Source: a virus. From it: a DNA stretch of 27,331 bases. Positions within the stretch are counted from its first letter, which is position 1; the number at the start of each line of letters is the position of its first letter. Below the pieces are notes generated by a model, which worked only from the letters and a program-made list of their open reading frames with translations, made no database searches and was not told the origin of the DNA. The stretch lies in IMG/VR virus record IMGVR_UViG_3300033273_000156, positions 1 to 27,331 of that record. One strand, given 5' to 3'. A program made the translations under genes and the position numbers. Shown here one piece after another: positions 7,143 to 10,521 of the stretch.

Positions 7143-7298
7143 TAACTAGAGATAGTGGGCAGGTGTTATGAGCCTGATGGATTGCCGCCATAAAAATCAT
7201 TGCTGATGAATTGTTGTGTTGGGACATGGAGTGTCGTTAGTGGGTTACCTAATAGTCCTCTAATGACCCCTATTGTCTAAAAAAAATGGAGCATGAAA

Positions 7299-7820
7299 AT
7301 GATTAAGTATATTTGTCCATGTTGTAAATCTCATTTAAGCCTTAATGAGTTTGAAAAATATGATGATGGAAGCAAAACCAAAGAGGCTCAAGAGAGAGCT
7401 AGGCGGCATCAAGAAAGAAAAGATGCTTTCGCTAAAAGAAACTCTGAGATTTATGATAGGCGTGAACAAGGTGTGATTTACAGCAAGTTAGCCGCTGAGT
7501 TTGATTTAAGTATTGAGCGATTACGTCAGATTTGTCGCAGAGAACCTAAAGTTCGCGCAAAGAGACATTTTGAACAGACAGCGAAAGAAAAGTTCAAAGG
7601 GATTAGCTTTTACTCTTGGCAAGAACTCAATAAACATGGCATCGAACACCCAGATCAAGTTGAGCCTTGGTTAAACGCAATGGACAAAGACATCAGACAC
7701 AATCTCTGTTTGTTTAATCGGCAGTATCAAGAGATTATGACTGCGTGGGGCTTGTTTGTTGATCCGATGACTAAACAAATCAAATCGATTGAAGGGTTGA
7801 AATGGAGCAAACATGAATGA
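7299..7820 (+). CDS. Zinc-finger/HTH protein, putative regulator
   Basis: ATG 7299 is preferred over 7293 because GGAG (7288-7291) then has a 7-nt spacing. The 173-residue product begins MIKYICPCCKSHL, a CPCC zinc knuckle, followed by a charged helix. Then comes a helix-turn-helix, IYDRREQGVIYSKLAAEFDLSIERLRQICRRE, like the sigma-4/Mor class (YSKLAAEFDLSIERLRQI). The C-terminal half is helical and unrecognised. It lies directly after the structured interval and ends inside the ribosome site of dcm, so it is a candidate regulator of this region. The regulatory role is inferred. Confidence 0.75.
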   Translation: MIKYICPCCKSHLSLNEFEKYDDGSKTKEAQERARRHQERKDAFAKRNSEIYDRREQGVIYSKLAAEFDLSIERLRQICRREPKVRAKRHFEQTAKEKFKGISFYSWQELNKHGIEHPDQVEPWLNAMDKDIRHNLCLFNRQYQEIMTAWGLFVDPMTKQIKSIEGLKWSKHE

Positions 7821-8670
7821 AGAACTCAGAACAATGCACCTCTTTGCAGGAGCAGGTGGAGGAATCCTTGCAGACCTCATTCTGGGACACAGACCTATCG
7901 TTGCAGTCGAATGGGACAAATACGCTTGTGAAGTCCTCAGAGCCAGAGCCGCAGACGGATGGTTTGACGGAATGTCAGTGTGGGAAGGAGATGTCCAGGT
8001 GTTCGATCCATCCGAATACAAAGGACGAGTGGATTGCATCCATGCGGGATTCCCTTGCCAAGATATTAGCCAAGCCGGCAGTCAAAGAGGAGTTGGTGAA
8101 GATACAAGATCGGGACTTTACAGACAGGTCTTACGGATTGCAGACGAAGTACAACCTCAATACTTGTTCTTGGAAAACGTCTCAGCAATCGTTAATGGAT
8201 ACGATGGGGCAATGCTCAGAACAGTCGTTGGAGACCTTGCCGCGCGAGGCTACGATTGTGTCTGGCGTTGTTTATCCGCTTCCGAAGTTGGTGCTAACCA
8301 CAAACGTGACAGATGGTGGCTACTTGCATACCCCAACAGCAACAGCGAATCAGATGAGTCCAACGATGATTCACAAGGCAAATTGGTGGCCGACTCCGAC
8401 TGCACATTTAGGGCAAGAGAACGGATGCTCTGCGGAGTTCCGAAGAAAGGCTTGTCTCACAGCGGATGCACACAGAAGCATAGGCAGTCAGGGTGGTGGC
8501 AAAGTGAACCCAATGTGGGTCGAGTGGCTAATGGGGTGGCCTTTAGGTCACATAGACTTAAAGCGTTAGGCAATGGGCAAGTGCCGCTACAATGTGCCAC
8601 TGCTTTCTCCATTCTTTGGAAAGAACATTTGATTATAAAAAATGCTTGCAGTTCTACGAAAAGTCATTAG
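7813..8670 (+). CDS. dcm: C5-cytosine DNA methyltransferase
   Basis: This 285-residue protein has the C5-methyltransferase motifs in order: motif I FAGAGGG (11-17, SAM binding), motif II near VEWDKYAC, motif IV GFPCQDIS (79-86, catalytic Cys82), motif VI ENV (121-123), motif VIII ANHKRDRWW (161-169, the QxRxR-type segment), and motif X GNGQVPLQCATAF (from 253). The target-recognition part between VIII and X is short and Ser-rich. It probably protects the phage genome from host restriction. ATG 7813 lies 5 nt after GGAG. A second frame beginning at ATG 7817 overlaps nearly the whole gene. The first 8 nt also overlap the preceding gene. Confidence 0.95.
   Translation: MNEELRTMHLFAGAGGGILADLILGHRPIVAVEWDKYACEVLRARAADGWFDGMSVWEGDVQVFDPSEYKGRVDCIHAGFPCQDISQAGSQRGVGEDTRSGLYRQVLRIADEVQPQYLFLENVSAIVNGYDGAMLRTVVGDLAARGYDCVWRCLSASEVGANHKRDRWWLLAYPNSNSESDESNDDSQGKLVADSDCTFRARERMLCGVPKKGLSHSGCTQKHRQSGWWQSEPNVGRVANGVAFRSHRLKALGNGQVPLQCATAFSILWKEHLIIKNACSSTKSH
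7817..8569 (+). CDS. Overprinted +1-frame ORF within dcm, methyltransferase-associated family
   Basis: This 250-codon frame starts at ATG 7817, 4 nt after the dcm ATG and 9 nt after the same GGAG, and has no stop until 8569. Its product is not random: SWKTSQQSL (118-126), ETLPREATIVSGVVYPLPKLV (139-159), HTPTATA (171-177), WPTPTAH (191-197) and the C-terminal NPMWVEWLMGWPLGHIDL. I recall this motif series from proteins found with phage Dcm genes (typical ending LNPxWVEWLMGWPxGWTDL). The same nucleotides in the dcm frame encode the normal Dcm C-terminus (SEPNVGRVANGV...RLKALGNGQVP). Either both frames are used, or the second records an ancient frameshift relationship. Expression is unproven. 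Confidence 0.5.
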   Translation: MKNSEQCTSLQEQVEESLQTSFWDTDLSLQSNGTNTLVKSSEPEPQTDGLTECQCGKEMSRCSIHPNTKDEWIASMRDSLAKILAKPAVKEELVKIQDRDFTDRSYGLQTKYNLNTCSWKTSQQSLMDTMGQCSEQSLETLPREATIVSGVVYPLPKLVLTTNVTDGGYLHTPTATANQMSPTMIHKANWWPTPTAHLGQENGCSAEFRRKACLTADAHRSIGSQGGGKVNPMWVEWLMGWPLGHIDLKR

Positions 8671-9235: not shown

Positions 9236-9273
9236 TGACTCCACTGACTGACAGGTGAAACAGGTTGGAGCAA

Positions 9274-10521
9274 ATGTCACAATTAAGTGTGAACTACGTC
9301 AGCACTGACGATCTCATACCATATGCGATGAACTCGCGTACTCATTCAGATACCCAAGTCGATCAAGTAGCGGCAAGCATCACTGAGTTTGGGTTTACCA
9401 ATCCAATCCTTGTTGACGACTTCAACGTTATTATTGCAGGGCATGGACGACTCATGGCCGCAAAGAAACTTGGTATGGATAAAGTACCCACGATTACTCT
9501 TGGTAATCTGACAGAAGCACAGCGCAAAGCCTATGTCATCGCAGATAATAAACTTGCACTGAACGCAGGTTGGGACGATCAAGCATTACAGGCAGAACTA
9601 GAACGCCTCAAAGAGCTAGACTTTGACCTGGAGCTAACAGGCTTTGATGCTGACGAGTTAGCTAAGTTGCTCGAACCAGAACAGGTAGAAGGTCTGACAG
9701 ACGAAGATGATGTCCCTGACGTACCTGAAAACCCAGTTAGCCGTGAGGGTGATATATGGGTATGTGGTAACCACAAGATCATTTGCGGAGATAGCACTAA
9801 TCCGCAACATATTGAGAATTTACTTGGTTCTGTAAAGCCACATTTAATGGTTACTGATCCGCCATACGGTGTTGAATACGATGCCGATTGGAGAAACAAA
9901 GCAAAGCGAGCAGATGGCTCTGTTATTGGCGGCTCTGCTTTAGGCGTAGTCGAAAACGATGACAAGGCAGATTGGCGAGAAGCGTGGGCATTGTTTGAAG
10001 GCGATGTTGCGTATGTTTGGCATAGTGGGTTATTTGCAGGAACGGTGGCAGATAGCTTAACAGCGTGTGATTTTACGCTTAGATCGCAAATTATCTGGGC
10101 AAAGTCCAATTTTGCTATTGGACGTGGTGATTATCATTGGCATCATGAACCTTGTTGGTATGCTGTTAGAAAAAGTAAAAAAGGGCATTATTCAGGAGAT
10201 AGAAAGCAAACGACTTTGTGGCGTATTGATAAACCTATGAAGTCAGAAACTGGACACTCGACGCAGAAACCTGTCGAATGTATGCGTAAGCCTATCGAAA
10301 ACAATTCATCGGTTGGTCAGGCAGTCTATGAGCCTTTTAGCGGTAGTGGCACAACGATGATTGCTTGTGAGCAAACAGGACGACACTGTTATGCCGTAGA
10401 ATTGAATCCTGCTTACGTTGATATTGCAGTAAAGCGTTGGCAAGACTTCGCAGGCAAGAAGGCTGTTCTTGAATCAACTGGTCAGACATTTGATGAGGTA
10501 TCAAGTGGCGAAGCGCGGTAG
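9274..10521 (+). CDS. ParB-domain/DNA methyltransferase fusion (N6-adenine or N4-cytosine)
   Basis: ATG 9274 is chosen because the only ribosome site, GGAG (9267-9270), would be inside the gene if TTG 9265 were used. The 415-residue protein starts with a ParB/sulfiredoxin-like nuclease-fold domain (1-95; VSTDDLIPYAMNSRTHS, GHGRLMAAKKLG at 56-67, DNKLALNAGWD). It continues with a beta-class amino-methyltransferase: DPPYG (195-199, catalytic), HSTQKP (328-333) and FSGSGTT (355-361, SAM site), in the IV-to-I order of that class. Such fusions are common in phages and modify adenine or N4-cytosine; which is not decidable here. It overlaps the small terminase gene by 17 nt. Confidence 0.92.
   Translation: MSQLSVNYVSTDDLIPYAMNSRTHSDTQVDQVAASITEFGFTNPILVDDFNVIIAGHGRLMAAKKLGMDKVPTITLGNLTEAQRKAYVIADNKLALNAGWDDQALQAELERLKELDFDLELTGFDADELAKLLEPEQVEGLTDEDDVPDVPENPVSREGDIWVCGNHKIICGDSTNPQHIENLLGSVKPHLMVTDPPYGVEYDADWRNKAKRADGSVIGGSALGVVENDDKADWREAWALFEGDVAYVWHSGLFAGTVADSLTACDFTLRSQIIWAKSNFAIGRGDYHWHHEPCWYAVRKSKKGHYSGDRKQTTLWRIDKPMKSETGHSTQKPVECMRKPIENNSSVGQAVYEPFSGSGTTMIACEQTGRHCYAVELNPAYVDIAVKRWQDFAGKKAVLESTGQTFDEVSSGEAR

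Follow-up and report, generated by a model that had tools for sequence, protein, structure and literature searches.

A segment of the window (the whole stretch of DNA analysed here, a 27,331-base virus record from a tailed phage with genes for an Erf-like annealing protein, NinG/Rap, terminase, portal, tape measure and a central fibre) very probably encodes a single C5-cytosine DNA methyltransferase composed of two chains, which are read from overlapping frames of the same DNA. The alpha chain (the dcm frame, 7813-8670) would provide the cofactor and catalytic motifs I-VIII and, at the C-terminus, motif X, the stretch between them needing only to stay open, and the beta chain (the +1 frame, 7817-8569, or a shorter product from an internal start) would provide a recognition region of PTPxA modules followed by motif IX. 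The dual constraint, the placement of the motifs, the maintenance of an open alpha frame and the single-chain homologues were computed; we infer independent translation of both chains from the paired starts, their assembly into a predicted active enzyme in which beta recognizes the target, and a biological role in marking phage DNA, probably for escape from host restriction.

Organization of the overlapping frames

The features of the segment, with the evidence for each in brackets, are as follows.

7813-8670, + strand: alpha (dcm) frame, catalytic chain of a C5-cytosine methyltransferase with motifs I-VIII and X, 285 aa (PF00145, PHROG_363 and M.HhaI matches)
7817-8569, + strand: beta (+1) frame, predicted target-recognition region and motif IX, 250 aa (open frame, beta HMM, regional excess conservation)
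7804-7807, + strand: GGAG, Shine-Dalgarno-like, common to both starts (sequence)
7813-7820, + strand: ATGAATGA, with the alpha start at 7813-7815, the beta start at 7817-7819 and a TGA at 7818-7820 (sequence)
7834-7863, + strand: motif I (MHLFAGAGGG), alpha frame (alignments A2 and M.HhaI)
8047-8061, + strand: motif IV, catalytic GFPCQ, alpha frame (alignment A2)
8173-8181, + strand: motif VI, ENV, alpha frame, overlapping SWKTSQ of beta (alignment A2; excess conservation in both frames)
8299-8313, + strand: motif VIII region (HKRDR), alpha frame (alignment A2)
8327-8488, + strand: putative target-recognition region, beta frame, with PTPTA modules; alpha frame open and unconstrained (excess conservation, dN/dS, stop counts)
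8504-8557, + strand: motif IX, beta frame, VNPMWVEWLMGWPLGHID, overlapping EPNVGRVANGVAFRSHR of alpha (beta excess 4.67; match to the single-chain TRD-IX profile)
8554-8586, + strand: motif X (RLKALGNGQVP), alpha frame (alignment A2; follows motif IX in frame in single-chain relatives)

Both ORFs were found where the original prediction had placed them, with the peptides that it quoted lying in the +1 frame, and both starts do stand behind one GGAG (7804-7807), at spacers of 5 nt to the alpha ATG and 9 nt to the beta ATG. The TGA at 7818-7820 within ATGAATGA closes an upstream ORF (7293-7820). Alpha matches PHROG_363 over residues 3-266 (E 2.5e-56), whereas PF00145 covers residues 6-181 only (E 9.6e-38) and the match to M.HhaI in the PDB extends over residues 5-176 only. 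Motifs I, IV (PCQ), VI (ENV), VIII and X are present in the alpha frame (PF00145, alignment A2, M.HhaI match), and motif IX is absent from this frame of the window. The beta product has no match in Pfam or NCBIfam, and the beta profile gave no meaningful match in the PDB; beta residues 73-207 match PHROG_1008 ('DNA methyltransferase', a 329 aa profile; E 2.1e-13). A second methyltransferase, with a ParB-like N-terminus fused to a DNA methyltransferase, is encoded at 9265-10521, 0.6 kb downstream of the alpha/beta gene (PHROG_498, E 1.3e-148).

Identity of the +1 product

The +1 product is very probably the missing part of the same methyltransferase, namely the target-recognition region and motif IX, and no separate family. 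The sequence GKVNPMWVEWLMGWPLGHID at its C-terminus reads as motif IX, for which Klebsiella phage KP15 has RRLSPRECFRLQGFPDSF. By a strict pattern, motif IX was identified in the +1 frame of 150 of the 165 non-redundant loci and in the alpha frame of none, while patterns for the alpha-frame motifs recovered motif IV in 158, motif VI in 164 and motif X in 128 of them. Among the loci kept from the alpha query, motif IX was in the +1 frame in all 78 (70 by a looser pattern and eight variants by eye).

Single-chain C5-methyltransferases of actinophages (Gordonia phage Gudmit gp58 and most of L333-L345) contain the same motifs, with I-VIII, PTPxA modules, IX and X following one another in one ORF; they differ from the window in that everything lies in one frame and one chain. 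A profile-profile comparison matched beta to these enzymes across the recognition region and motif IX (probability 96.8, E 2.3e-10), and the beta profile had no match among five distant phage methyltransferases, mostly canonical. The suggestion that the +1 product belongs to a family now found as separate proteins, which arose by frameshift of Dcm, fared unevenly. Among the best 80 genome loci, 79 have the beta frame nested in +1, one has it nested with motif X added, and none has a separate gene of the +1 family; single-chain enzymes, on the other hand, have the homologous segment in frame, so a frame split from a single-chain ancestor is likely.

The AlphaFold2 model of beta alone was poor (pLDDT 59.6, pTM 0.25) and was set aside as too uncertain. 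For the single-chain enzyme L341, AlphaFold2 gave a good core, a disordered recognition region (residues 232-330) and a confident IX-X part; a Foldseek search with this model retrieved M.HhaI and M.HaeIII over about 230 columns, which is approximately the size of the core and therefore uninformative on motif IX.

Relation to known split methyltransferases

According to PMC3404938 (citing Lee, Kam and Shaw 1995), M.EcoHK31I is a two-polypeptide C5-methyltransferase in which the large chain carries motifs I-VIII and X and the smaller one motif IX alone; the recognition domain was predicted there to be on the large subunit. The window resembles this enzyme (YGGCCR) in having two chains, both of them predicted to be translated, and in having motif IX off the large chain. 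It differs in that evolutionary evidence places the recognition region on beta, in that the two frames overlap over almost all of the gene and start 4 nt from each other, and in that the gene belongs to a phage; among the window genes scanned, none was recognised as a restriction enzyme. By these features the window appears to belong to the M.EcoHK31I-type architecture. The beta chain of M.EcoHK31I is itself translated from another frame within the gene for alpha, and M.EaeI is presumably a close system beside it.

M.AquI (CYCGRG) is described in PMC3404938 as a naturally split C5-methyltransferase with motifs I-VIII on alpha. Its motif X is on beta together with IX, whereas motif X of the window is on alpha, so the window lacks this M.AquI-type feature. 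The M.AquI layout, with X on the beta chain, was observed in mycobacteriophage Noelle gp77/gp76 (L330) and in L141 and L299, which are intermediates. As PHROG_1008 matches not only beta but also, weakly, motif X of alpha at its C-terminus (E 0.24), it probably describes AquI-like beta chains, and it differs from the window in that motif X seems to be on the same chain.

Regional constraint and the location of specificity

Column-wise conservation beyond that imposed by the other frame was mapped in 155 loci; the permutation used for this also removes similarity by descent, and an excess of about 0.1-0.4 is the baseline. The alpha excess was high in motifs I-VIII, nil across beta residues 171-224 of the window (0.12-0.24), and rose to a high level once more at motif X. 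The beta excess stayed close to baseline at GFPCQ and ERSGLW, was raised at SWKT, WPRWG and the N-terminus, and was 0.8-2.6 in the recognition region, with its peak, the highest of the gene, at VEWLMGWPLG (4.67). In its N-terminal third, beta mostly shadows alpha, and the true beta start is therefore uncertain between 7817, 7991 and 8042.

A dual-coding test on dcm homologues agreed with this map, with constraint in the Dcm frame, then in the +1 frame and then in both. For 82 independent, non-overlapping pairs, 60-95% identical, simple counting estimates of dN/dS from substitutions synonymous in one frame only, with no correction for multiple hits, were 0.25 for alpha and 0.66 for beta in motifs I-VIII (pair sign count 80:2), 1.02 and 0.53 in the recognition region (4:74), and 0.38 and 0.32 at motif IX (31:33). 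The same handover between frames was seen between the window and its closest relative, L167 (7/0 to 4/15).

These estimates bear on a reading in which the pair is real but specificity resides in alpha, with beta contributing only motif IX and a scaffold. Such an arrangement would agree with the large-subunit recognition domain predicted for M.EcoHK31I, and as recognition domains are variable, poor conservation of alpha alone does not exclude it. It is nevertheless improbable, since in the recognition region beta is the constrained frame even among pairs as similar as those compared, since a whole beta module, between conserved flanks, differs between the close relatives L167 and L168, and since homologous PTPxA modules occupy the recognition position in single-chain enzymes. 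Evolution and homology thus favour a recognition region on beta, contrary to what has been published as a prediction for M.EcoHK31I.

The number of PTPxA-like modules per recognition region ranged from 0 to 7 by a loose pattern in beta of 165 loci, and the single-chain actinophage enzymes (L333-L345) have several of them in a row. By analogy with multispecific phage methyltransferases, each PTPxA module may be a separate recognition module. In L167 and L168 the complete recognition module at beta residues about 190-228 differs, which looks like module exchange. In L241 and L242 (Salmonella phage S9-5 and Klebsiella phage BUCT711), the 5' part of the gene is nearly identical and the 3' part differs, suggesting mosaic exchange of the recognition end.

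Two chains or one

The alpha frame has no stop codon in the recognition region in 159 loci, where 449 would be expected and the third frame has 528; loci of other architecture (L016, L088, L141 and L209) were left out of this count. As alpha remains without stops where it is otherwise unconstrained, it would be read through to motif X, with beta made separately. The first beta ATG of relatives is most commonly at +4 (42 of 103), and the second alpha codon of relatives is AAT in 44 cases vs AAC in four; the AAT bias behind the +4 start was 10:1 (P 0.0025) at 60% clustering, with too few cases to judge at 50%. In other relatives beta starts near +142, so a short beta form is likely in some of them. 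The beta chain of M.EcoHK31I reportedly has 176 aa, and a size match between it and the short beta form was dropped, as the internal ATG at 8042 gives 175.

An alternative is a single chain made by programmed frameshifting, in which the ribosome would move from frame 0 into +1 ahead of the recognition region and return to frame 0 ahead of motif X. The order of the motifs along the DNA (I-VIII, recognition region, IX, X) is that of a single chain with its middle in +1, and single-chain relatives exist. However, each protein would need two opposite shifts, and frameshifting does not require an open alpha frame in the recognition region, yet that frame is uninterrupted; the beta frame, moreover, stays open a long way upstream and at many loci has a start 4 nt behind that of alpha, and the known precedent, M.EcoHK31I, consists of two polypeptides. 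We regard frameshifting as highly improbable, and the uninterrupted alpha frame in the recognition region argues for two chains.

Several loci depart from this arrangement. L088 (2477-3388) and L209 (2227-3123) are single ORFs in which a change of frame leads from one of alpha and beta into the other, in either direction, and may represent a sequencing error, a pseudogene or a natural fusion. Mycobacteriophage Seabastian (L240, 1324-2083) is annotated with two DNA methylases, as are several related records, because a frameshift, compared with ShroomBoi (L244), interrupts its alpha and beta ORFs and exchanges them.

Openness and conservation of the +1 frame

The original prediction put the chance of so long an open +1 frame at about 6 in a million, which proved far too low: with the Dcm protein and its codon usage fixed, one of 200 synonymous codon permutations gave a +1 frame at least as long (260, the longest among them), so that openness alone corresponds to approximately P = 0.005. 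Openness by itself is weak evidence, and conservation is decisive. A tblastn search with the +1 product found six matches in 50,697 phage records, all at dcm genes; five of them were inspected and lie in the +1 frame of dcm, and one of these has the sixth as its near twin. As a shadow of Dcm would be expected to give matches in the same place, the shadow was tested directly.

For this, half of the 165 non-redundant viral loci served to train a beta profile, and the loci of the other half were scored with it before and after the synonymous codons of dcm had been permuted. In every one of the 83 held-out loci the +1 product exceeded all 50 alpha-preserving permutations of itself, with a median of 343 bits observed vs 166 permuted; the window beta scored 237 bits, its permuted genes having a mean of 114 and a maximum of 142. 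Approximately half of the similarity of the +1 product (166 of 343 bits) is therefore a passive shadow of Dcm conservation, and the conservation in excess of it is what chance does not explain, most clearly in the target-recognition region and in motif IX. That the whole +1 frame might be such a shadow, untranslated and made to look conserved by Dcm, draws on this persisting half, on the 53-60 bits that the +1 frame of canonical single-chain enzymes can reach and on the modest P of openness, but is rejected as scarcely credible, being contradicted by the permutation scores, by the regional dN/dS, with beta conserved in the recognition region where unconstrained alpha casts no shadow, and by motif IX, normally required in C5-methyltransferases, which is present in +1 only. 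The alternative that the original prediction had offered, one DNA segment encoding two conserved products, was supported by the held-out permutation, the regional map, dN/dS, the alpha-query loci and the stop counts.

The scores of 53-60 bits against the beta profile came from L325 and L326, ordinary single-chain methyltransferases without a beta gene, and database families built from such shadow matches would mix true beta chains with shadows.

Distribution and annotation

Similar overlaps were suspected to be widespread and unnoticed, and they are: the pair was found in at least hundreds of viral contigs, a lower bound in which prophage overlap between viral and genome loci is not separated, and a nested +1 frame in all of the best 80 genome loci. 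It occurs in phages of Salmonella, Klebsiella, Vibrio, Stenotrophomonas, Acinetobacter and mycobacteria, as well as in bacterial and archaeal genomes. Only the large frame is annotated in the records examined, and as annotation pipelines keep one frame, the half with the recognition region and motif IX is missing from these records. The annotated 'Dcm' is thus without a core motif, and attempts to predict from it the specificity of phage methylation will fail.

A search of open-access literature on overlapping or alternative-frame phage methyltransferases found no paper describing such genes. The split of motifs between two chains is already known from M.EcoHK31I; what is new is the breadth of the distribution, the missing annotation and the proposed placement of the recognition region on the small subunit. 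It seems fairly probable that the dual-coding methyltransferase is an old, widespread and almost unannotated type of phage gene, in which the recognition subunit is nearly always inside the gene of its catalytic partner and specificity changes by module exchange where that partner need only stay open. As constraint moves from frame to frame along the gene and hundreds of homologues are available, the pair is a strong natural case for measuring selection on overlapping genes, and the placement of the recognition domain in M.EcoHK31I-type enzymes becomes directly testable. A nested pair was also observed on plasmid p2 of Leptospira interrogans (L243, 2281-3096), where it is annotated as one DNA cytosine methyltransferase.
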